Below the pieces are notes generated by a model that saw nothing but the letters and a program-made list of their open reading frames with translations, did not search any database and was not told where the DNA came from. A stretch of 64,000 nt of DNA. It comes from Gibbula magus. Lineage: Eukaryota; Mollusca; Gastropoda; Trochida; Trochidae. The DNA is taken from positions 79,931,436-79,995,435 of the forward strand of contig OW388291.1 of the NCBI GenBank assembly GCA_936450465.1. The letters run 5' to 3'. Below are positions 7,751 to 60,186 of this stretch, piece by piece. The position numbers were made by a program, and so were the translations under genes. Numbering within the stretch: the stretch's first letter is position 1; each line of letters begins with the position of its first letter.

Positions 7751-9495
7751 TTTAAACTTTGAACATGTTAGTAGTTTTTACTTTAGAGAGATAGGTACAA
7801 CAATGTAATTCTTGTAATTATGTGTACCTGATGCGCTACAGAGGCAATGGCTCTACTTTGTACAGACACTTTTCACCCAAGAAATTGCACATTATGTTAT
7901 ACTCATTACTGGTTTTTTAAATGTGTATATTTACACTATTCTATTAACCGTTGTTTTCGAAGGAGAATATTTTCTTTGAAGTATCAAAGAAATTTAAAAA
8001 AAATGTAGAACCGAATATATATCTTTAGAATGCTAATGTGTGTTTGGGAATGGTCGTTATAAATAAATATACTGAAACGGAGAGAGCCATTATTTTTTTT
8101 AACTAATCGGGAAGGGTCGTAGTTTTATATCTAAACCCAAGTAAAAATAACCGGTTAATGACCCATGTGAGAATATATCTGTTGAGTCTGACTCTCTGAT
8201 TGGCCCTACTTGTTGAATCATATGTGATGGGGAGAAGATGGACATGGAACTGATGATCATCAGAAGATGAAATGTTTTCGCCAATACATTCGTAGCATTA
8301 GATTTTTCAAGGAAAATTACGTTCATGAAATTGCGATAAATCCCTTCGTAAGCTCAAGCAATTATTGCTATGTTTGTTCAAAGTGACTGCCTTCCAAGTA
8401 GCAACGTATATAACCAGTTGACACTGTTGACGAAGGAATTACCAACTGTGTAAAACAAACTGCATTTGTGCTGCTGGGTAAGGCCAACTTAATGTGAATC
8501 TATTATTTTTTTAAAGTTATAAATGAAAATAATTAGCATTTGCAATCATCTTTTACAAATAGGAAAAATCATTTGTTTTCCAGAACAGTATGTAAACTCT
8601 GTATACAACAGTAAACATTAACTTCGTTTCTAACACATTAATTATGAATGATTATCTTAAGCAATACAAATGTGTTTCAAACATGTACATGTATCGTTAA
8701 ATAGAATTGGTAAGAAAGTAATGATCTCATTTAGACATAACATTAAAAACGAATTCATAAACATTTTAGCCAGATATTGTGGGTTGCACCAATGTTGTTA
8801 GTCTTCTATTTGCCGTTGAAGCTGCTAATACCAGTGCTGTTGATTCATCTAAACCGTGATTGGAATTAACTCAAGGGAAGCAAAATTTATTGGAAAATTT
8901 AAGATGAGGTATGATTCTCAGATTCAAACTACTACCAAGAAATACACATGAGAGAAAATATTTTGACAACTAGAAGTTCAAATGCTGTGATGTTTTATTT
9001 GCTTCCTAAAGTTTATCAGGCTGAACATGATGTTTGAAGTGATATAAATGTTGGAAAATGTGAGGACTGTGTTACAACGGATTAAAACATTATGAAAGTG
9101 ATAGGTATAATGACCTAAAGGGAACTGTTTGTGATGACTGTTTTGACACAGAAACCAAGTTTGATGAGATAGTTAGTGACATTCCTACATGTACAATTCA
9201 TGAAATTGACAAAGTGACACTCAACTTTGGGTGAAAACCAGAGAGTTTAGAATTACAAGTAGCAATCTCAACGACATTCTTACAAGACAACAACCAACTG
9301 ACCCAGCTGTGTTAGTCAACATATTCACAGACTGAAATATTTGGGGTTGTATAAATGAATCAATCGCTAAGTAATTGCCTCCAAGAACTTAAAAATGTTA
9401 GTGATTGGGTGAGAAAAAAGAGTTACCTAGGGGTCAAATATATTTATGAAGAAACAAACTTCGTAAGAGATAAAATGTCGATTTAAATGACAAAA
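7751..9495. other. No intact gene; possible decayed coding remnant at 9070-9480
   Basis: Most of this stretch shows nothing. Around 9100-9230 (+) a frame contains CDDCFDTETKFDEIVSDIP and ends in stops, with further short peptide-like pieces to 9480. This could be an old gene or retroelement fragment; I do not recognise the family. Confidence 0.3.
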
Positions 9496-10672
9496 TAAAC
9501 TAGTGTCCAAAAGAAACGATACCACGTCTTTGAGCGGCCATTACAGGAAAACTTAATGACACAGAAATTTATAATTGGTATTATTCTTTTGAGATTTCGT
9601 TCATTTAACATGTGTACAAAATTCATTTCAATCAGTACTTTGCATTCATTTGTGCAGGTCTGTATTGACGTGAGGGGTCTGAAAATGGAAATTTCATTCA
9701 CACAAATGACTGAGACAAATGTTGAAAATGTCAAAAGAGGCGTCACTAAGTCACATTTGTATTCGGTATGTCCATCCCGAGCGTCAGAACGGGCTAGTAC
9801 ACGTCTATGGGTTGATGACGTCAACGTCGGATGACGTCAGAAGATAAGCTTTGTCAATCATCATGGAGGCAATTGGCTGACTTGATGGACGCATTTGAGA
9901 GAGTAAAGGTCAGTAATTCTTCGGTAAACACGCTGTCTACCATTGCTTTTGAAGATGCAAAATCGGCTCCTTTATGAGAGCATGACCATTGCTCAATCTC
10001 TCTGTTTCCAACGTTGAATTCGTATGTTTGTTTACTCGTTGTTGAGGCCTCAGGAACGTTTTGTGGTATGGACGACGTGTTCAGATATCATGAGTCTTCA
10101 ATCTCTTTTACCAAGTTTGTCTGCTAATCACGTGTCTCAGTGACGTCTTTGACGTTAACGTCGTAATGATGAATGGGTTTCGGAGATGAAATACCCGGAT
10201 GTGGCGGTCTTCAATAAGCGTAATCACCTTCTTCTCGACCTGCATGTTGTCCGATCTCTATCACGTAACCGTTGCGTTAACCTGATGACTGCTATGCGCG
10301 CGCAACCGAACCTTCTGGCGTCGTCGGCGTGTGAGACTCGCTATGTGACGATTCCAACGGCTCTCTCTCACTCTCAATGGCTGTCAAAACCGATATTTTC
10401 TTGTGTGCTTTTTGTTGCTTTGATACCAACGTGTATGGTCAGCCGTTTTATACACTTTATCTGCAGTTGCAAACTATGCTACCTTAAATAACGTCATTTT
10501 CACAAAGTGCACCATTTCTCCGGAAGTGATAAAATGTTCTCGGTATTTTCGATTGAAGACACTGCATTTGGGATGTGGGATACGCAAAACCATGTGTTCA
10601 TACGAAAAAAATCACTTTGTAAAAAGATATTTTAAAAAATAGATGGTATCGTTTCTTTTGGACACTAGTTTA
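9496..10672 (-). mobile_element. Tc1/mariner-type transposon relic
   Basis: The terminal inverted repeats begin AACTAGTGTCCAAAAGAAAC and are flanked on both sides by TA (9496-9497 and 10671-10672), the target duplication of the Tc1/mariner superfamily. On the minus strand, near 10200, a frame reads TLIEDRHIRVFHLRNPF, which resembles the N-terminal DNA-binding half of Tc1-like transposases; stops follow and the catalytic domain is missing. The open frames at 9483-9834 and 10186-10491 are by-products. At about 1.17 kb it is a deleted, non-autonomous copy. Its ends resemble those of the element at 60189-60985. Confidence 0.8.
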
Positions 10673-36279: not shown

Positions 36280-37170
36280 ATGATAAATAATATAATAATA
36301 ATAGTGGGTATTTATAATGCGCCAACTTCCGTGCATGCAATGCTCGCTCAAGGCGCTACAAAGATAGAAATAAAGAAACAGTAAAACTATACACAATATA
36401 TACAGAGAGCTTAAGTTTAAGGTAAATACAATCTAAGAGAATGCTAATGAGAAATAATAGGTTTTTAAGAGGGATTTAAAAGAGTTCAGTGATTTGGCAC
36501 ATTTCACGTCAGCTGGCAGTGCATTCCAAAGTGAAGCTGCAGTGTAGGCAAATGTCCTATGGCCATAGGAGACAAGTCTGACTTTAGGAACTGCAAGTAG
36601 GTGTTGATTTTGTGATCTTAGAGATCTAGCAGGGGTGTACTGAGAGAGAAGTTCAGACAGATAGTCGGGAGCTTGACATTTCAGACATTTATATGCAAGG
36701 CACAAGATCTTGAAATTCACACGGTACTTAACAGGGAGCCAATGAAGGAAAATGAGAGATGGAGTGATGTGATCTCGTTTCGATTTCAGACAAACAATTC
36801 GGGCAGCAGAGTTTTGAATTTTCTGAAGTTTCTGTTCTTGTACAGAGGTTAATCCAGCAAGCAGGCTATTGCAATAATCAAGTCTAGAAAGCACTAGAGA
36901 TCTAACTAGGGAGTGGGCACAGTCTATGGTGATGTAACGGCGGATGGAGCTGATGGTTCTGAGGTGGTGATGGCAAACTTTACACAGATGGTTGATGTGG
37001 GCATCCAGAGAAAGGGAAGAATCTATGTACACACCTAAGTCTTTAGCAACAGAGGAGGGTTTGATGACAGATGATGCTATATGGATATGGTAAGGTTGTA
37101 GACCCTGATAGTCAGGAAAAACCCTCGGATGCTTCGCATCTTCGGGTTTTTCCTTCCTATCAGGGTCCAC
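36280..37170 (-). mobile_element. L2/CR1-like LINE 3' end, reverse transcriptase C-terminus
   Basis: A 245-residue open frame (36433-37170) carries the C-terminal part of an L2/CR1-type polyprotein: AKDLGVYIDSSLSLDAHIN, SRLDYCNSLLAGL, DHITPSLIFLHWLPVKYR, YTAASLWNALP. The catalytic reverse transcriptase core is missing. The 3' tail contains TTTGTAGCGCCTTGAGC and ATTATAAATACCCACTATT, the usual end of such LINEs with an ATT-type simple repeat. The frame is still open, so the copy is young or little decayed. Its 5' truncation point falls inside the hairpin at 37093-37175. Confidence 0.85.
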
Positions 37171-49098: not shown

Positions 49099-50602
49099 CT
49101 ACACATCCTCTCCCTGACTTGGTTTCTGCTCGGGCAGCTCCTCCTCCTCCGTGAGACCCAGGTACATAGTAACCAGCGCTAGCCAGGTGAGGAGGTGCAG
49201 CACCGCCCCTGTGATGTTTAGCACCGCCACCACCAACGACATCTGCACACGTTTCCTCAGTGCCAGGATGTGCAACACGAAGCTTGTGGTACCCCAGAGA
49301 AGGTTGATACCGGCCAACAGGAACACACCTTATGGGATTGAACACAAAAGTGTTATTACATAATTGAATCAAGTTCTTTTCATTTCTCATCATTTTCAAA
49401 AACAATTATGGTAATCATTTTAGCAGGTTTTCTGGTCTTTTTATGAACTTAATGCAGTACATGACTGGAGACAGGGGAATCGAAGGGATGAATGCATTGT
49501 TCATGTTCATTGACTGATATCATAGCAAGAGGGAAGCTTGGTAACTCAGAAAGTAGTTCCATCAACTTTCTCAAGGTCTTGAACAGGTTTACATGTATTA
49601 ACCATTTCAAATCATACGAACCATGACATTTTATTCAACATTCAGAAATTTGTAAAACTTCAAAATGCGAAAGTATACTTTGTCACTTGCTTCATAAGAG
49701 CTCATACACACGGAGATGAGTGGACATACCCTGAGCTGCTAGCTGCGATACCTCCAGGGTGCCCTCGGCCTGCATCCCACACGCAACAGCACTTGCCAGG
49801 TACGAGTTCCTACACCACGACAGGTAACCTGGACGCACAGAATATGGAGACAAATGAAATTTATACATACAGGACCTTCATTTGATATTCTGAATCTGGA
49901 GAAGCTCTCTATTGCTTAATGTGTTGAGCCAGTTTTACACCCAAATGAGATTAAGGAATACTTCTTTATCAATATCGATTACTTTTTTAACATCTACTGA
50001 TATAAATTATTGTCATCTACTTACCATTTTCATTTGCCAAGCGTATAGCCTAAAAAGAAAATTTAAGAAATTTATAAACAAGTAACATAAAACTATGAAT
50101 CAATGAATAATAAAATTGCAGCTGTGGATGTTAGTAAACTTTATGAAATGATTCACCGATACTAAGCTATATATATATGCTTTTGAGGATCAAAAGAGAA
50201 AGCATATTAAATAACAAGATTTATGATCATTTAGTAACATTTACACAGTGGATATAAGGAATTACACACCCAGGCTGAGTCTGGTGCCCCTTTTGTACTT
50301 GGGGACTGCGATGTTTTCACCAACTCAACTGATTCAGCTTCAGATTGATACTGTCCGCTACCAACACCTATGTTACTCCTTGTTCCATTGAAAGCAGAAA
50401 CTGATAACCCTCTGCACTGAACAAATTGTCCGAGAGTTCTGCAAGTGCCCTGACCTCCTTGGAAACTAGTCAAAACAACATCCCTGTTTGTGCTTTGGAG
50501 TAATGATGATTTGTAGTGAACTGTTCTGTGTTGTTCTTTATTCCTAAGAAGCTGTCTAACGTTGAAGGTTTGTTTTGTCAACCGCAGTAGCTGTCTCATC
50601 AT
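49099..50602 (-). CDS. TMEM160: TMEM160, mitochondrial transmembrane protein, 4 exons, 228 aa
   Basis: Exons on the minus strand: 50602-50270, 50049-50025 (only 25 nt), 49828-49730, 49328-49099; all have consensus sites and matching phases. Residues 1-111 are basic and Ser/Thr/Gln-rich with few acidic residues, which fits a mitochondrial presequence plus linker. Conservation with the vertebrate family begins at residue 112: ANENGYLSWCRNSYLASAVA aligns with the family's (H)ET-x-FLSW-x-RN-x-LLAS block. Hydrophobic segments lie at about 128-138, 153-176 (GVFLLAGINLLWGTTSFVL) and 182-211, ending at MYLG, with an acidic tail (EEEELPEQ). The molecular role is not established; the vertebrate protein is mitochondrial. 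The first of two adjacent ATGs was taken as the start. Overlapping frames on both strands are by-products. Confidence 0.9.
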
Positions 50603-51502: not shown

Positions 51503-51535
<33 letters not shown>

Positions 51536-51625
51536 GTGGAATTTTTCCGCCATTTTGTTTTTCAAATAGCCTTGACATGACCTTTAAGTGACCTTTAATT
51601 AAGGTAGAAGGTGACCTTTAGGTCA
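51503..51625 (+). repeat. Left terminal inverted repeat with G31 run and subterminal sites
   Basis: G31 at 51503-51533, then TTGTGGAATTTTTCCGCCAT. The match with the right end is near-continuous to about 51590 and resumes at the GGTGACCTTTAGGTCACC palindrome (51611-51627). Confidence 0.93.
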
Positions 51626-51732
51626 CCTGTACCCTCGCACATGATATGTAGGTGACCTTTGATTAATGGGGTTCAAGTGACCTTTAGGTCACCTGTACCT
51701 TCACACATGATATGAAGGTGACCTTTAGGTCA
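51578..51732. promoter_or_regulatory. Cluster of nuclear-receptor-type half-sites, left end
   Basis: Everted repeats TGACCT-NN-AGGTCA occur at 51612-51625, 51678-51691 and 51719-51732. A direct repeat TGACCT-N5-TGACCT (DR5 spacing) is at 51578-51594. One more everted copy is in the right end at 58473-58486. The same palindromes could instead be binding sites for an element-encoded protein. Confidence 0.55.
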
Positions 51733-53045
51733 CCTGTACCCTCTCATGTGACTTGAGGTAACTTTGATTTGACAGGTGTGATCAATAACTTGAATGAAAA
51801 TATCTTACAAGTTTTAACTATTTTGATTAAGAGCTTACTTAATGTTTTGAAAAATGAAAATGAGTTGGATTAAGGTTTTTAATTTCTATCCATACTAATT
51901 CATAATTCATACAACAACATTTTACAGAAGTGTTTAAAATTGCCTGAAGATAAATTAACCGAGATGTCATTGACCAGTGGTCAGTAAGTGTAGAAATGCC
52001 GACGGAAGTGAACAGGATATAACATCTCAAGTACTCCTTCAGTTTGACCAGTCCCTATACTATACAGGAAGTTCTCAACTGGACATACAGTGATATCCAT
52101 AATCGTTGTGTGTTTAAGTTACTGAATGAAACAAACAATGTCTGGTTAGGGTAATTTCAATGGAGTAACTATAAAACTTGTTAAACTTCTGTTAATCTGT
52201 CAATTGTCTTATTCTTATTGAATAAACCATTTTAGCATGAGTTTTCTTTACGGGCATACATATCAACATTGATTCAATATTCAATCTGAAATAAAAGACT
52301 AACACTCAGTCTGCGCTATTCTAGAATAGAGATTGTAGACTGGCTACATATTGGGGAAGCCATACTGACCACATTATGACAATAAAACAATAAAAGCAAC
52401 ATGTTTTTAAAGTCTGGAATAATGTAATGTTTTACTCCTATGTTAGTGACAAGAATGAAGGATAAAATATACCCTATGACAAATCCATGTGTAGCTCTAT
52501 TTGTAGATTTTCTAGCTTTATTCATTCAAAAGGAGTTTTGGGGGAGAAAAGGACACAAAGCTTGATACGATAATATCAAAGTGAAGGACAATAATCAAGT
52601 CTATCATTTGCCATTTAGCTGCTTACAAACCCATGGGGAGGGCAACACTGACACACTGAAACCTCAGTAGCCATTTCCTTAATAACATAATGCGTTCTTA
52701 TGCGCCCAGATAAGAATGTGGCACAAGATTCATATAAATGAGCATACTTATAATACCTTAGACTTTGCACAAGTTTGCTTAAACATCTGAATACCATTTT
52801 CTGAAAATGTCATTTACAAGTGATTAGCGATATGGTTTTTTCATACATTTTAGTTTGTTATCATATATCTTGCTCTAGATTTGCTCTAACATTTCTAGAA
52901 AAATGTCACTTTATGGGGTGGGTACGCAATATTGTTATGGATTTGTTATGAGAGTAAGGTCTAAATATTTCTGATAATACAATCATTTTACATTAGACAT
53001 CTATCATGTTTTCATTAAGATGAGAAACAAGATGAGATCAACATA
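51733..53045. other. Non-coding left part of the 7-kb element
   Basis: Minus-strand open frames at 51839-52030, 52316-52525 and 52615-52797 are short and show no recognisable domain. I see nothing else in it. Confidence 0.4.
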
Positions 53046-53500
53046 TAAACCTAAAGTAGGCACATATGTCCTGTCTGTGGTAAATTGTTCAGACAGGTGA
53101 CCTTTTGGCCCATCACAAACATTTTCAACTAATGTACTTAAGTAGGAACATCCTGTTTTTTGGTAAAAATATGACAGACAGGCAGCTGGACTTTTGACCT
53201 GTCACAAAAATGACAAAAATAGAATTACCTAAAAGTGGGCACATCCTGTTTGTGGTAAATTGTTTATAAAGGTGGCCTTTCGGGCCATCACAAACATTAT
53301 TAACTAATATCCTTAAGTAGGAATATCCTGTTTTTTTTGGTAAACATATGACAGATGGGCAGCTGGACTTTTGACCTGTCACATAAATAGATAACCTAAA
53401 AGTGGGCACATCCTGTTTGTGGTAAAACTCTGACAGGCAGGTTACCATTTCACCTGTCATCAACAGATGTCCTTAAGTAGACACATCCTGTATCACAGAA
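53046..53500. repeat. Tandem repeat, about 175-bp unit, nearly 3 copies
   Basis: The unit includes CCTAAAAGTGGGCACATCCT, TGTGGTAAATTGTT, CATCACAAACAT and CAGCTGGACTTTTGACCTGT. Copies start near 53049, 53229 and 53394. The open frame across it is a product of the repeat. Confidence 0.8.
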
Positions 53501-54661
53501 AAATTTAGTCAGCTGACCTTTAGACCCTATCAAAAACACCTATAAAAGCCCATGCTTTCCCACAATGTTCATTTGTAAATCGTGGATTTTTTAATAATGT
53601 TGTATTAATTACCAGACTCTACATATTTTATATATTATGTTAAATAATTTGTTTCCATATATTTTATAATACACTGTGGTGTACAATATTTAGTATCAAA
53701 TATAATATTTATTTAATGTGTACATCACAAGTTGAAGCTGCCAGCTTCTTAATGAAACTTCATCTTACAATTAAAATGTGTGAGAATGACCGGCCATCAT
53801 CAATGACTTATTTGTTGAGGAGATAATGAGGCAGCCGAGTGGTCACTAAAAGAGGTGTTCATCCTATTCAAACCAACAGTATAGTGGTCAAGTAGTTAAT
53901 GAGAGCCAATTAGTAACCGGGCCATAAGCCTGTGTATGGGTGAACTGCTTGAGTAACAACTACTCAAGTACTTCACACTTGAGTGATTCTCACTGGGGGC
54001 AGTCAAGATATTTCACTGTTGATGGGGGTTCTATTACATCTAGCGGACCCTTTAAGGGATATGAGAGAGAGAGATGATGTATTATCTCTGAAAGAGTTTT
54101 CAAGTATTGAAAGTTTGTTAGTAAGGATTGTTTTGATTTGTTTGGCAAGTTAACATAGTTACATGCTGGGACAGTTGGTGAATGTTTAACAGGGTAAATT
54201 GGAATAAATTGGAATAAATTGAAAGTATTGTTTCAAGACAATGTGTATATGTTATTGTAGTATTATTTTATGAAATATTGATAAATCGCATACAAACAGA
54301 GTGTATGTAAGAGTTAACACATTCATGTATTTTAAAAATTGTCTCAATTGTACAATAACTAAGTAACCATCTGTTCAGTGAGTGTGTGAATGTATCACTT
54401 ATAACAGGGTTGGCTACTTTTACTACAGGAAGAAAAACCCCATCATCCAAGTGTTTGATAAACTGAAGTATTTCATGCAAACTTTGCAGTGTGTAGAACA
54501 GTTGTTTAAACCAAGACCATTTCAAAACGTTTATGTCATGAGTATCATAAGAAAATAACAAATAATAAACTAGAATACAACATCAAACATTTTTTATTAG
54601 CCCCGTTTCAATGAGAAGATTTTAGGATAAGGAGCACTCCTGTAAATCTGCTTTACAACGT
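53501..54661. other. 3'-flanking region of the ATPase gene
   Basis: On the minus strand an AATAAA polyadenylation signal (plus-strand TTTATT, 54593-54598) lies about 64 nt after the ATPase stop codon. The 97-residue open frame at 54268-54561 (-) has no recognisable features but could be a small gene of the element. Confidence 0.45.
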
Positions 54662-56344
54662 CTATTGGCTTTCATCTTCATCCTCCGATACCTCACTCTC
54701 GTCATCAGATAGCGTTTCGTCGTCATCATCAATTAAATCTTCTATCCAAGATTTATATTTGTACAATTTAGAAAACACAGTGTGATATATATCATTGGTG
54801 TCTTCTACTTGATTCAAAAGTCCTTGTGTCTTTGGTCCCCATTGCAAATAGTGCAGATACATAATAAAGTGTGCATACATTTCTTTAAAAGCTCTCCATG
54901 TTAACTTCTTCAGTTTATCATCTATCATTTCTTCAGTGAGACCTCTTTTCAAATAAAGTTGTCTTTTCTCTTCCAAAAAGTCTTTATTTTCCTCACGTAC
55001 ATTTTTATACATTTGTCTTATTCCTTGCTCCTCAAGATCACCTGCTTTCTGTGGTTTATCAGCATGGTTTGTAACACTATCATCATCGTCGTCGTCATCA
55101 GTAGCATTTTCCATTTCAGGACATTGTTTATCATGGAGATGTCTCTGCAAGTTATGACTATTACTGAACATTTGCCCACAATAAACACAATCTTCCATTT
55201 GACGTGGTTTTTTCACAGTAATGAAATCCTCTTCCAATTTTCTTTTCATTCTCCCATCAGGTAATCCAGGAGGACTCTGTCTAGAGTCTCCACTCTCTGG
55301 ACACCAATTTTTTCTATGTTTTTGCAGATCAGAATGGTCCTGAAATACTATTCCACAATCATCACAGGAAGGCATGTTTGAGAGGTAATTTTCACAAGTC
55401 AGCACTCTATGGAGATTTCGCTCCAAATGAATGTTCTGTGGTGTGTGTTCTCTTTTAATACTAAATACATTAGGACAGAGCCGATCAGAGTTGGGAGTAA
55501 ATGGTTTAAGGTCGACAAGTAAATACCCATACGGTTTTTGAGTAGCCAACTGAAATGTTTGCATAAAATGTTGAGATCGGGTTGGATACATTTGCCTTGC
55601 TAAAGTCATGATAGGTTGTTGATCCACTGGATTGTTAAAAAGGATGAAATAGAGACAATTTCTCCGTTGTGTTGGGTCCCTATTATAGAAAAGGTTTTGA
55701 TTGATGGCGATGACAGAGAGGTTGCGATGATGGGAACCTTCTGTAAATAGATCTGTTATGCGTGGGTCCTTACTCGCTGAACTCATTAGATCATCAAGAA
55801 CGAGGACATTCACCATAGTAGGATCAAGAAAATCATCCTTTTCAAGGCCAGAAGGAATACCTTGGAAGAACTCAACATTTGGATAAACGTCTGTAAGAAT
55901 TGTGTTGTACAAAGGCTGCCATCTCTTGTATAACCAGATAATTCGTTCTGGATATGGTTTAATCTTCATCCTCTCTAGAAACTGCTTCACTAATAAACTT
56001 TTACCACTCGAAGTGGGCCCAGAAACTACCATTGTAAAGGGATGTAATAGCCTGAATTCTTCAGTCGAATGATGAGTAGCATCATGAGGAGGAGGAGGGC
56101 CATGAGGAGTAGGAGGAGGGCCATGAGGAGGAGGAGGAGGGCCATGAGGAGGAGGAGGAGGGCCATGAGGAGGGCCATGAGGGGACGGCGTCGGTAATGG
56201 TTGCTGCCTGTGGTTGTCTGTCGTTGGCTGTGTATTTGTCTGTGACTGTGAATTTTCAAAAGCAGGTTTGTGTTTAGATCTCCTGTGTCTCAACATATTG
56301 TCAGTTCTGGAAAAAACTTCCCCACACACTGGACACATCACCAT
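54662..56344 (-). CDS. A32/FtsK-HerA-like packaging ATPase fused to three zinc fingers, 560 aa
   Basis: Likely drives ATP-dependent genome packaging, as A32-type ATPases do in Polintons and large DNA viruses. N-terminal C2H2 finger: C4, C7, H20, H25. A (PPHGPP)-type repeat covers residues 53-87. The ATPase starts at HPFTMVVSGPTSSGKS (Walker A 109-116), has Walker B VLVLDDL (180-186), GSHHRNLSVIAINQNLF with a polar sensor at 215-217, and a C-terminal YGYLLVDLKPFTP block. Two further fingers of C2HC form follow: C327, C330, H343, C348 and C386, C389, H402, C408. Between them lies a bipartite basic stretch (MKRKLEED...VKKPR), a probable nuclear localisation signal. The tail is strongly acidic. 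The start ATG at 56344 lies about 35 bp downstream of a TATA box, and 56 bp separate it from the upstream gene. Proteins with this ATPase core are scattered in invertebrate genomes. The frame is intact. Confidence 0.85.
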   Translation of the reverse strand: MVMCPVCGEVFSRTDNMLRHRRSKHKPAFENSQSQTNTQPTTDNHRQQPLPTPSPHGPPHGPPPPPHGPPPPPHGPPPTPHGPPPPHDATHHSTEEFRLLHPFTMVVSGPTSSGKSLLVKQFLERMKIKPYPERIIWLYKRWQPLYNTILTDVYPNVEFFQGIPSGLEKDDFLDPTMVNVLVLDDLMSSASKDPRITDLFTEGSHHRNLSVIAINQNLFYNRDPTQRRNCLYFILFNNPVDQQPIMTLARQMYPTRSQHFMQTFQLATQKPYGYLLVDLKPFTPNSDRLCPNVFSIKREHTPQNIHLERNLHRVLTCENYLSNMPSCDDCGIVFQDHSDLQKHRKNWCPESGDSRQSPPGLPDGRMKRKLEEDFITVKKPRQMEDCVYCGQMFSNSHNLQRHLHDKQCPEMENATDDDDDDDSVTNHADKPQKAGDLEEQGIRQMYKNVREENKDFLEEKRQLYLKRGLTEEMIDDKLKKLTWRAFKEMYAHFIMYLHYLQWGPKTQGLLNQVEDTNDIYHTVFSKLYKYKSWIEDLIDDDDETLSDDESEVSEDEDESQ

Positions 56345-56375
56345 GTTGACAGTTCAATGGTTTATTTCAAACTAA

Positions 56376-56384
56376 CTTTATAAT
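56376..56384 (-). promoter_or_regulatory. TATA box of the ATPase gene
   Basis: ATTATAAAG on the minus strand, in the 56-bp gap after the small basic protein gene and about 35 bp before the ATPase ATG. Confidence 0.5.
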
Positions 56385-56400
56385 TTGGTGTTGTTGGTAG

Positions 56401-56772
56401 TTAAAAGATTGTTTTCATTCGTTTTCTTGGACCTCCTCTCACTTTGATTTCCTTTGACTGTTTTAAATTTGCCTGTACTCTTTTTTCCTGAGCTTTGGCT
56501 TGCTCCACGACGTGTTGTGTAGGGGAGATAAAGTTGAGTTTGGGTTGTTCAGAATAAGGCATGTTCCTTGCCTGTTCTTTTCGTTTCCTTTCTTCCAAAA
56601 TTTTAGGCCACTCGGGATCGTACAGCTCCAATGTTCTGTCCACAGACATTATACCCTGCTGTTCCCCACCTCTCATGACAAAATTATATGGTTTCAGTTT
56701 ACCCTGGACTTGTAACATATAATAACGAGTCCATTTCTCAGTGTCTGGGACAAATAGTTTGTATTGACTCAT
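56401..56772 (-). CDS. Small basic protein of unknown function, 123 aa
   Basis: The start is the ATG at 56772 (context CACCATGA); the frame stays open further upstream to 56805 but without an ATG. A TATA-like box sits about 60 bp upstream. The N-terminus (MSQYKLFVPDTEKWTRYYML) looks folded. The middle is rich in Lys, Arg, Glu and Gln and probably helical. A GG pair occurs in NFVMRGGEQQG, and the C-terminus is RGGPRKRMKTIF. Position and charge would suit a DNA-binding or minor structural protein of the element; this is inference. I do not recognise a family. Confidence 0.65.
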   Translation of the reverse strand: MSQYKLFVPDTEKWTRYYMLQVQGKLKPYNFVMRGGEQQGIMSVDRTLELYDPEWPKILEERKRKEQARNMPYSEQPKLNFISPTQHVVEQAKAQEKRVQANLKQSKEIKVRGGPRKRMKTIF

Positions 56773-56829
56773 GGTGATGCGTTCAGTTTGAATATTCTGA
56801 AGCAAATGAGGTTAGTCACTATCTCGACC

Positions 56830-56838
56830 TATTATATA
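56830..56838 (-). promoter_or_regulatory. TATA box of the small basic protein gene
   Basis: TTATATAATA on the minus strand, 58-66 bp upstream of the ATG at 56772. Confidence 0.5.
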
Positions 56839-57002
56839 AGTTCTGTCAACCTATATTGAATTCAGTTCCCATATCAGTCTGATAAAATACCAAGTATACG
56901 ATCTTGTGTTTTTCAAAGGTCTGTCAAAGCTTTCACCACTTCTTGACCTTTGGTAGACTGCAGTGGACAGACCCAAAAGATAACGTGAAATTAAATCGAA
57001 TC

Positions 57003-57212
57003 TTAACCTTCAGCTTTCACAGCTTCGAATAACTTTTTTGGTCCGGCATAACTGATGTTAAGGATCATAATAAATATCATGTAATGTAAGGTGTCATGAT
57101 GGGTAAATGGGCCTATCCTATTGATTTTCACTGTATTTATATATCTACAAAAAGAAGACCAACACAAGAAAAATACATACAATATGTTTATAACAAAATC
57201 ATGGTATACCAA
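57003..57212 (-). other. Short hydrophobic open frame after the BIR relic
   Basis: A 69-residue frame with a hydrophobic stretch (NILYVFFLCWSSFC). It starts right after the stop of the preceding frame. It may be leftover coding sequence of the broken IAP-like gene or chance. Confidence 0.2.
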
Positions 57213-57279
57213 TCATACTGTTGAACCAAGGTAACATGTTTTGCCAGGATTGTCTCTCTTTTGGTTTGGTTGTCCTACC

Positions 57280-57403
57280 ATATACAAATAGTCAGTCTTG
57301 TGACCACCTCTTATGTTCCACCCAGGGGTCATCTGTATAGGCCAGTCCTTGAATGAGTCAAGTCTCAGCGCAGAATGAGTTCTACCAGTTGATATAGTCA
57401 CTA
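57280..57403 (-). pseudogene. Relic of a BIR (IAP-type) domain
   Basis: BIR domains bind caspases or other partners and block apoptosis. The start of a BIR is readable directly after the PC4 stop codon as ALRLDSFKDWP. Its C-terminal part is readable immediately downstream in a different frame as DDPWVEHKRWSQD, followed by a stop codon where the family has its last zinc-binding Cys, and then LFV. The central part, about 40 residues including the C-x2-C pair, is absent, and the two ends are out of frame. Three independent breaks show that it is dead. Both ends match the family at the correct order, so chance is unlikely. IAP genes are carried by several invertebrate DNA viruses. Confidence 0.6.
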
Positions 57404-58434
57404 GGATTGCACTTCGAACATTGCAAATGCTCCATTTGACCCTGATGAAAATGTTCATCATCTACACCAAGATCATCATCGTCAACACTCTCATCATCAT
57501 TACCATCATCAGAAAATGGTGGTGACCTTAAATCGAGGTACATTGGCGGCGATTCATCTGATGTATTGAAAGGTGTTGCAACCTCATATTGTGGTCTTCC
57601 ATCAGATGCTGTGGTTTTAATATAACCAATAGGATAATGATCAGGTTTCTTCCCCTTAACCAAACTGCTATACCCTGGAATCAGTAAGTCCATCTGCGGA
57701 TCAAATCTTCTGTAGTCTTTATCCATCTCCTCACGGATCTGACGTATTTGTTGATCTACATGATCCTCTCCTTCAGTGTTGGGAACTTCTTTGTCAGACT
57801 GAGACCCATCATCATCCGGTAGTTTTCTCTTTAAGGATTCATTCGAGTTCTTAGACTCATGGGTCTCGTTCTTCTTCTCTATAAGTTTATTTGAATCTGT
57901 ACTCTTAAGAGAGTCAGTTGGGCATGTCATCATGTCCCTCAGTTCAGGCACAAAGTCTGGCATCACATCACAACAATCTCTCAATCGTTTCCACTGGTCT
58001 TGAGATAGTAGAATACCCTTTGAGGTTGGAACTAGTTTACCAGCATCATCTTGTTCCCATTGCCTAAGATCCACACCATGGTCTTCTGATGTTGCATACA
58101 CATTTGCTCCAACATGTGTATAATCACCTGTCTCACTGCATTCCTCCAAGTAATAGAAAACTCCAGGAAACTCAAGCCAGTGTTTAAGAGTTAGCATAAT
58201 ACCACGTTTTGTAGGGTAAGACTTGCCACTAACATACACCGTATACTTCCTGATGTCAATGTATACAACATCGTTCCATGTCTTTGCTGTCGCAAACACA
58301 TTGTCGCCAAGATCAAGATGACAATGATGGTCTTGAAGAGTAGCCAAAGTTTCATCTAGGGAATTCTTGTCTGAAGTATTCATCCTTGCAGTGTTAGTTG
58401 ACAACTGTTGAAATGACTTAAAAAGATAGGTCAT
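57382..58434 (-). CDS. Protein with two tandem PC4-type ssDNA-binding domains, 350 aa
   Basis: PC4/SUB1 domains bind single-stranded DNA as dimers and act in transcription and replication. Domain 1, residues about 39-95: LDLGDNVFATAKTW, VYIDIRKY, PTKRGIMLTLKHW. Domain 2, about 104-165: VGANVYATSEDHGVDLRQW, PTSKGILLSQDQWKRL. Both show the family's LG-x-N-x-(Y/F)-x-(T), DIR-x-(Y/W) and P-(T/S)-KGI-x-L-x-x-x-x-W pattern. A linker with a basic KRKLPDDD stretch (likely nuclear localisation) and an acidic tail (DDESVDDDDLG) follow. Two copies in one chain might form an internal dimer. The first ATG (58434) directly adjoins a TATAAA, so transcription from it would favour Met18 at 58383. An everted AGGTCA repeat lies 40-50 bp upstream. 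It is the outermost gene at the right end; the frame is intact. Confidence 0.8.
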   Translation of the reverse strand: MTYLFKSFQQLSTNTARMNTSDKNSLDETLATLQDHHCHLDLGDNVFATAKTWNDVVYIDIRKYTVYVSGKSYPTKRGIMLTLKHWLEFPGVFYYLEECSETGDYTHVGANVYATSEDHGVDLRQWEQDDAGKLVPTSKGILLSQDQWKRLRDCCDVMPDFVPELRDMMTCPTDSLKSTDSNKLIEKKNETHESKNSNESLKRKLPDDDGSQSDKEVPNTEGEDHVDQQIRQIREEMDKDYRRFDPQMDLLIPGYSSLVKGKKPDHYPIGYIKTTASDGRPQYEVATPFNTSDESPPMYLDLRSPPFSDDGNDDESVDDDDLGVDDEHFHQGQMEHLQCSKCNPSDYINW

Positions 58435-58440
58435 TTTATA
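58435..58440 (-). promoter_or_regulatory. TATA box of the PC4-like gene
   Basis: TATAAA on the minus strand immediately before the first ATG, 33-46 bp inside the everted repeat at 58473-58486. Confidence 0.5.
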
Positions 58441-58472
58441 ATGGATAACATGACCAAGTTTTCTACAAAAGG

Positions 58473-58550
58473 TGACCTAAAGGTCACCTGAACCACTTAA
58501 GGGTCATGTCAAAGGCTATTTGAAAAAACAAAATGGCGGAAAAATTCCAC

Positions 58551-58582
<32 letters not shown>
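58473..58582 (-). repeat. Right terminal inverted repeat with C30 run
   Basis: Read on the minus strand it starts with G30 (plus C30, 58553-58582), then TTGTGGAATTTTTCCGCC, and ends at the palindrome AGGTGACCTTTAGGTCACC. It mirrors 51503-51625. Confidence 0.93.
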
Positions 58583-60186
58583 TGTACAACAACAGCCACC
58601 TCAAGAATACTTCTAACAAGAACAGCCAGTTGTTATATCCCTGTTCATCTCATTTATAAAACATTGAATAACATTGTGTAGGAAGTTTGCCAGTGCTCAG
58701 TACAGTGTAATTCAACAATAAATAAAGGTTCAGAAATTCAGAATAAAATACGTATTCAATAAAGTAAAGAATTGCAGAGAGGAAATACTTAAGGCGTCAC
58801 CTGAGTTATTTCGTGATCAGTTGATCTTCATTGATTTTATTAAGAAACAAAACAGCACATCAGTGAGAGGAGTACATATTGTCAATGCCATACGTATAAT
58901 TCTTCGTCACAATCAGTGAGGTTACTGCTATCGTCTTGGAGGGACTGGGGGCGGAAATCAGAGGTCATAATTGAGGTCAATTCATGTTCATGCATATTCA
59001 TGTTAGCCATGTTTTCCTCTTTGTTGTTGACTTTGTGATAATAATATTTCCTGTTTTCACATCCATTAAAACAACGAAACTCCAAACAATCGATCATTAG
59101 CACAGATGAGTTGCATTTTGTGTATATACTAGTTAGAAAGGACTACAGGGGTAATTATGACTTTTATCACTATTATTCTTAGTTATAAAGAATTATTAAA
59201 GAGGTCCTGAATTAGCGACACTTTCAAGAGAACATGAGTATGAGCTTACATACATCCTATTGACTTGAAAATACAGAACATCTTAAACCAATTTTGTAAA
59301 AGGGAGAAAGTTAGTAATACCAAGCTGGCACTGAATTGGACTTTTTACCGAGAATGTATAGGAATGCTGTGCTAATAGTTGTTGAAAGGTATGAACAAGT
59401 AAGTGTAACCGAATTTAGATAGTGTGCTCACTTTCGTTGGCATATGTTTACATTGTAAGATATAAAAAAAATAATTGATTAGAGAACTAACACCTTTGTC
59501 AATGTTTTAATAATATTTATAATTAAGGATAGACCGCCTCATTTAATTATTGAATGATATCTCATAGCAATATTTTATAAGCAGATCTAGACCGATACCT
59601 TATATCAAATACCCAAGATATATTCATTATTGTTTTTTTTAAAGCTACTTGTATAAGTGTTGATTTGGTGAAAGGAACACCCCCTGTATTACCAATGTTG
59701 TTATTTTATCGTTATATATCAGGAGGAATTACCCTTCAATATTCAGTATAGTGACACTATTATGATATTTCCTCGTGACTATGATCGAAAATCGAACAAC
59801 AGTTCACGTAGCAAACAAACAAGAGACAGATATTGGTTGGTATTGTTCAATGGGTCATTTAAATTGTATACTTGTATATGGGGCACATAATTTTGGCATG
59901 CATTAAGTCGTTGCTCGATTTTCATAGAAAGCACGTTATTGTAAAATATATTTGGCATTAGACCCTGCAGGATGAACCTAGCTGGTAATGCATTTCTTCA
60001 ATTTCAACGGACATGATCAGACGATTTGACGTGTTTCATGGGGAGAAGGGGCTGACTTGAGGCCACGCCAGATACTGAAGCAGTTCTGTCTATTTTGTCG
60101 TCGTTTTGGTTGTGATTTGATCACATGAAATTAAAGTGACATATAAAATGTGACCCTATGATGTTATAATGAGAACTTTCACTTTA
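58583..60186. other. No gene recognised
   Basis: AT-rich flank of the 7-kb element. The open frame at 58882-59103 (-) shows no known domain. Confidence 0.4.

Follow-up and report, generated by a model that had tools for sequence, protein, structure and literature searches.

A short repeated element with a packaging-type ATPase and a double-PC4 gene in the snail Gibbula magus: a possible satellite related to Polinton-type viruses

Introduction

Polintons are generally regarded as endogenous viruses, and capsid-less Polinton parasites that retain the packaging motor are not known from animals. Krupovic et al. describe Polintons as elements of 15–20 kb that encode PolB, an integrase, an ATPase, a protease and capsid proteins (PMC4028283). 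Buck et al., whose survey included adintoviruses, report that virus groups have formed chimeras (PMC11071296); the term PC4 is absent from the main text of that paper, and a combination of PC4 and ATPase is not described in the relevant passages. Here, we describe a short element of about 7 kb in Gibbula magus, which occupies positions 51503–58591 of a stretch of 64,000 nucleotides, hereafter the window. It is bounded by inverted ends and its intronless genes, all on the minus strand, encode an ATPase of the packaging type and a protein with two PC4 domains (PC4x2), among others. The host, the turban top shell, is a vetigastropod snail. No description of the short element was recognised in the literature searched, which is no proof of absence.

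The short element resembles Polintons/Mavericks in its terminal inverted repeats, its 6-bp target duplication (in all 13 sequences with both ends) and its FtsK/A32-type ATPase, and the same genome holds relatives with integrase, protease, PolB and a capsid candidate. It differs in its smaller size of 7 kb, in lacking a match to PolB, integrase, protease or a double jelly-roll capsid, in beginning with TG instead of the AG of Polintons, and in carrying PC4x2 and C2H2 fingers. With adintoviruses it shares the animal host, the packaging ATPase and relatives with an adenain-type protease, whereas the defining PolB and capsid (virion protein block) were not found in it. Phage satellites of the phage-inducible chromosomal island (PICI) type are likewise capsid-less with a packaging-type gene of their own; the short element, however, is eukaryotic, it has an ATPase in place of a small terminase and its dependence on a helper is putative. 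Virophages and Polinton-like viruses are small DNA elements of which some depend on others, but they carry their own capsid. Judged by its gene content, the short element is not a Polinton or an adintovirus by definition, as PolB, integrase, protease and capsid were not found. By its ATPase, the probable homologue of its 123-amino-acid (aa) protein and the 6-bp duplication, it belongs among their wider relatives.

A repeated unit with fixed ends

The Gibbula magus assembly of 1,470,318,725 bases (largest contig C1, 117,468,434 bases) was searched for copies. Only the best candidates were scored, and all genome-wide counts are therefore lower bounds. The PC4 family gave at least 150 matches (best 150 of 591 candidates) and the ATPase at least 99 matches at 78 scored places (best of 7,471 candidates). 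Identity over the matched part, which was partial in some cases, was at least 94% at 49 of these 78 places and 62–93% at the other 29. At 39 of the 78 ATPase places, a scored PC4 match precedes the ATPase on its strand by no more than 9 kb; at the other 39 there is none.

Fourteen sister copies of the window type (L009–L021, L024) were retrieved together with related ones. All 14 had an identical gene set and order, their PC4 protein was 94.5–97.6% identical and their BIR relic was coreless. The ends were surveyed by pattern in 21 sequences (20 loci and the window). Both ends were found in 13 of them, with an element length of 6,411–8,024 bp, and all 13 were flanked by an identical 6-bp target duplication, every site being different. 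At least one end was missing by pattern in the remaining eight, the window included; since the window copy lacks the outermost left motif, no target duplication is legible there.

The left end occurred at 40 or more full or nearly full-length places (best of 205 candidates). Because it recurs in this way and 28 of the 40 scored left ends face a scored PC4 match at a distance of 2.0–7.6 kb, the inverted ends belong to one unit. Among the 12 that do not, six form three inverted pairs of 18.9, 19.2 and 6.9 kb (the first two at C15:47252272-47271147 and C5:87202544-87221764), and a further one is 18.5 kb away from a PC4 match (C5:20389970-20408640). The 6.9-kb pair encloses an ATPase.

Taken together, the copies show the short element to be a discrete unit, repeated with constant ends. 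By the test proposed in the initial annotation, a distinct unit should recur as one 7-kb structure in many copies, and such copies were found. That host genes happen to lie within unrelated repeats is conceivable in so far as PC4 is generally known as an animal host gene; the same gene block with the same ends at many sites and the duplications at 13 different sites out of 13 led us to reject a host-gene origin, the probability of which is negligible.

In the window, two arms of 59 nt (51504–51562 and 58524–58582) are 100% complementary, a run of 30 G included. Without the G run, 29 nt pair perfectly, and pairing extends to about 95 bp when indels are allowed. Sister copies end with TGTTGTA(C/T/G)AGGGAGGGGTTGTGG, the pattern of the terminal pair being TGTTGTA...TTGTGGAATTTTTCCGCC, and the long G run has expanded just inward of this end. 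The G run was therefore rejected as a genuine terminus. The inverted ends and the one-strand block of intronless genes seen by the initial annotation were borne out and the element is bounded as it had proposed; its right boundary at 58582 did not hold, the true right end being 58591. The features are listed in Table 1. In the left half, where no gene is recognisable, the longest matches to sister copies were 74.7–95.8% identical (two larger segments), and the left 3 kb are mostly more diverged among copies than the genes of window-type copies.

Table 1. Features of the short element (positions in the window).
Feature	Position	Strand	Remarks
Left terminal inverted repeat (inner part)	51503..51597	+	Outermost TGTTGTANA of sister copies absent; 51503-51533 is the expanded G run
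Subterminal palindromic repeats, AGGTGACCTTTAGGTCACCT type	51608..51740	.	One more copy at 58469-58494
Left half, no recognisable gene	51641..54661	.	Direct repeats at 53069-53512
560-aa C2H2-finger / A32-like P-loop ATPase	54662..56344	-	Packaging type by family resemblance
123-aa basic protein MSQYKLFVPDTEKW...	56401..56772	-	Strongly constrained; likely remote relative of the long-element 138-aa protein
BIR (IAP) relic	57216..57365	-	N- and C-terminal parts present, zinc-binding core gone
350-aa protein, two PC4 domains and acidic insertion	57382..58434	-	PC4x2
Right terminal inverted repeat	58494..58591	-	True outer end TGTACAACA at 58583-58591

Genes and selective constraint

The PC4x2 protein of the window scored 76.0 bits across two stretches (cut-off 25). 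Its ATPase, which holds three C2H2 stretches, remained just below the cut-off for Pox_A32 (21.9 bits, cut-off 22.8) and below that for Adeno_IVa2 (19.6 bits, cut-off 21). Among 33 aligned ATPase proteins, namely that of the window and 32 picked among the best 120 of 355 hits, Pox_A32 matched 27 and Adeno_IVa2 14 at E 0.01. For an AlphaFold model of the ATPase with a mean predicted local distance difference test score (pLDDT) of 68.5, Foldseek gave nothing at E 0.001; an isocitrate dehydrogenase came closest (0.092), and RecA/Rho-type P-loop proteins were among the weak matches. A proline-rich repeat (PPHGPP) lies within the ATPase gene at 56071–56195, and the frame length differs between copies. 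The BIR relic aligns with the intact BIR of sister copies, its core missing. The packaging-type ATPase, the two-PC4 protein and the IAP-like relic were all recognised correctly at first reading, as was the virus-like and mobile character of the element. The 123-aa frame meant there is most likely the one in Table 1; a second frame of this length lies outside the element at 50231–50602. No match to capsid, polymerase or integrase families was obtained among the six element frames scanned, the shorter ones not being included.

In the 15 window-type copies (window included), the frame was open for PC4 in 14, for the 123-aa protein without deletion in 13 and for a full or nearly full ATPase in ten. 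The ratio of nonsynonymous to synonymous substitutions (dN/dS) was calculated by the method of Nei and Gojobori as mean dN over mean dS of all pairs, uncorrected for shared ancestry. It was lowest for the 123-aa protein with 0.126 (18 copies; 0.225 within the 15 of the window type), followed by the ATPase with 0.355 (13 copies; 0.372 within ten of the window type) and PC4 with 0.426 (21 copies; 0.541 within the 15). All three genes are under purifying constraint. In one related copy (L034), the 123-aa gene has a dS of 0.47 to the window type beside an ATPase with 0.03, a sign of exchange or recombination between elements.

Long Polinton/adintovirus-type elements in the same genome

Four long elements (L025, L026, L032, L036) were read. 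From one end, they encode PC4x2, a protein of about 250 aa, an integrase, proteins of 148 and 138 aa, a capsid candidate of 436 aa and a protease, followed by a 143-aa protein, the ATPase and two further proteins. The frame of the 138-aa protein, which adjoins the capsid candidate, is shorter or longer in some copies. In L032, rve (35.5 bits), Chromo (31.6 bits) and Peptidase_C5 (25.9 bits) were over the Pfam cut-off and the ATPase was under it (Pox_A32, 19.7 bits). PolB adjoins L025 on the opposite strand (L030; DNA_pol_B_2, 46 bits, over cut-off), and a length above 1,450 aa is common among the PolB frames. Their open frames make these elements possible helpers, the integrase, protease and PolB of the copies tested (L032, L030) being over the Pfam cut-off and PC4x2 lying at one end.

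The label of the capsid candidate comes from its gene position and from a presumed likeness to F54H12.2-like proteins; the candidate had no PDB match and the term F54H12.2 was not found in the literature searched. At least 97 matches were obtained for it (best 96 of 352 candidates), namely 63 at ≥88%, two at 76–80%, 18 at 46–52% and 14 at 41% identity. A PC4 match lay 2–7 kb upstream on the same strand in 41 of the 63. As a control for linkage, PolB (69 of 345 candidates scored) was found within 12 kb of 46 of 93 capsid-candidate places, for which four second pieces were dropped and 68 PolB rows were taken from 129 PolB matches, with a few places counted twice. The families at 46–52% and 41% identity are two more capsid-candidate families with many uninterrupted frames, and no scored PC4 match lies within 15 kb of them.

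Other arrangements were also observed. L028 is a long-type copy with an internal deletion that has kept the integrase and 34 residues of the capsid candidate and has no protease or ATPase match. L029 and L035 are foldback elements with PC4 genes (in L029 also BIR) in large inverted arms, and several PC4 pairs among the listed genome matches face each other 4–11 kb apart. The ends of the long elements were obtained neither from a comparison of L030 with L025 nor from L038.

The PC4 gene of the long elements, the relative of the 123-aa protein and the related ATPase contradict the earlier claim that the combination with PC4 matches no element. They also bear on the idea that the short element is one segment of a two-part virus, complete and not parasitic, with capsid and replicase on a separate element. 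Its constrained genes, the lack of a local capsid and the presence of capsid-candidate elements with a related PC4 gene would suit this idea; as the long elements own an ATPase, a PC4 gene and a relative of the 123-aa protein and look self-sufficient, we regard it as very improbable.

Relationship of the short and long elements

The ATPases of short and long elements are 29–34% identical and match as profiles with E 4.7e-31. The 123-aa and 138-aa proteins match with 91% probability (E 1e-6), both profiles being very shallow, and plain tblastn at E 0.001 does not recover this match. When 13 long-element proteins were used as queries (E 0.001), the ATPase was the only one with a match in the window and in the 20 loci of the short element (21/21). 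L025 served as the control and gave matches at ≥90% to ten of the 13, PolB lying outside this locus. No long-type match to PolB, rve integrase, adenain-type protease or the capsid candidate was found in the 20 loci and the window, and none of the 78 short-type ATPase places had a scored capsid-candidate or PolB match within 20 kb. As far as these long-type proteins go, the absence of the usual partners noted by the initial annotation holds for all 21 sequences. The foldback element L035, which carries a long-type PC4, ends with AGTAGTAAAG / AGTAGTAAAGAAGGGGGG and has a 6-bp duplication (read from its flanks), compared to TGTTGTACAG / TGTTGTACAGGGAGGGG in the short element.

The short lineage thus has the ATPase and PC4, and probably also the 123-aa protein, in common with Polinton-type elements, but it split long ago from the long elements seen here. 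Of 15 divergent ATPase places at 62–81% identity, ten have no stop in the matched part and none has a scored match to the capsid candidate or PolB in the surrounding 20 kb, which makes the capsid-less state look old. Their surroundings were read for L022 only.

These data also bear on the simplest alternative, an ordinary origin by internal deletion, in which the ancestor is a Polinton-like element that has such ends and is autonomous, and the kept genes hitch-hike under a constraint imposed in that master. The inverted left-end pairs of about 19 kb on C15 and C5 and the left end 18.5 kb from a PC4 match are as large as a full element, internal deletion is seen in the long family (L028) and recombination between copies is visible (L034). 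Yet no scored match to capsid, PolB or short-type ATPase lies inside those long intervals, and the divergent ATPase places are likewise not near a scored capsid candidate or PolB. We consider such an origin rather unlikely. With an ATPase identity of no more than about 30%, the particular long elements seen here do not fit as the source of a fresh deletion. Of the possibilities raised by the initial annotation, the satellite and the distinct lineage survive and a fresh deletion derivative of the long elements does not.

Relatives outside the genome were also sought. IMG/VR scans with the ATPase, the capsid candidate and PC4 yielded no relative. A scan of prokaryote genomes found one 5.7-kb contig (L037) in the bin of a Bathymodiolus symbiont with broken C2H2-ATPase frames and further frames that resemble PolB by their motifs; it is mollusc virus-like DNA binned into the symbiont genome. 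A Sedimenticola bin encodes another relative (P0018). Beside a broken short element in Gibbula magus, L027 holds a 713-aa open frame (7762–9900, cut by the locus end) with many tandem CPDCGNWYKDLRNH-type repeats. Elsewhere in the window, the frames at 1428–2075 and 36433–37170 resemble pieces of non-LTR retroelement reverse transcriptases by their motifs.

Discussion

We favour the view that the short element forms an old non-autonomous lineage, a relative of Polinton/adintovirus-type viruses that is moved in trans and probably exists as a satellite on helper capsids, and give this view a probability of roughly 57%. Copying and insertion would be carried out in trans by the rve-type integrase and the protein-primed PolB of long elements in the same genome. 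The packaging ATPase of the short element, its core-like 123-aa protein and the single-stranded-DNA-binding PC4 protein would bring its DNA into helper capsids, and the retention of its own packaging genes may be understood by analogy with phage satellites that keep their own packaging subunit. BIR or CARD modules that travel with PC4 might counter host cell death and would have been lost in some sublineages such as that of the window.

Several points weigh against a satellite. Neither a packaged nor a mobile copy was observed, and helper dependence and packaging are deduced from the genomic setting. The capsid candidate is without structural proof, and its predicted model (pLDDT 28.7) is worthless. 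The ends of short and long elements are alike over only about 10 bases. The low dN/dS could be an inheritance from an unseen autonomous master, and the left-end pairs of 18.9 and 19.2 kb as well as the left end 18.5 kb from a PC4 match (C5) could be this master; a 901-base sample from one of these long intervals had no significant match. Deletion derivatives do arise in this genome, as L028 demonstrates. Finally, a divergent capsid or PolB nearby could escape when only the best candidates are scored.

The BIR next to PC4 is intact (75–82 bits) in L029, L031, L033 and L034; neither the copy in the window nor any of the 14 sister copies of its type retains the zinc-binding core. A protein search with the PC4x2 frame of a sister copy gave eight hits (31 candidates), five of them from Haliotis, and a CARD domain was over the cut-off in four of six scanned PC4 proteins (P0124, P0126, P0129, P0131), three of which are from Haliotis. 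Because BIR is intact beside PC4 in sister copies and PC4-CARD fusions occur in abalone, some mollusc IAP genes regarded as retroposed may be element cargo.

According to passages on the hard clam, 51 of its 159 IAPs are intronless, DNA transposons are enriched near IAPs, and a BIR and PC4 type (G3) shared with mussels is attributed to retroposition and domain co-option (PMC7831173). These genes resemble the cargo in their single-exon BIR, their association with PC4 and the DNA transposons nearby; they differ in being described as host IAPs. For the bay scallop, another study reports five PC4 genes, of which two consist of a single exon and encode a pair of PC4 domains (PMC9223095). Reasoning from the Gibbula magus copies, element cargo could be the source of both the G3 IAPs and the scallop double-PC4 genes.

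More broadly, the short element may do in an animal genome what packaging satellites do among phages: capsid-less, but with a constrained packaging ATPase, core protein and PC4 protein of its own, it would exploit Polinton-type viruses of its host that bear capsids, shuttle anti-death BIR/CARD genes and so have seeded part of the mollusc IAP expansion. We propose this wider scenario tentatively and hold it to be possible but doubtful. For the intronless IAP genes of molluscs, the PC4-BIR neighbourhood offers a concrete explanation other than retroposition. It also calls for caution where a single-exon gene with two PC4 domains is taken for a host stress gene. If the scenario is true, one snail genome would hold both partners in many copies and with open frames, so that dependence, packaging and cargo transfer would become testable.

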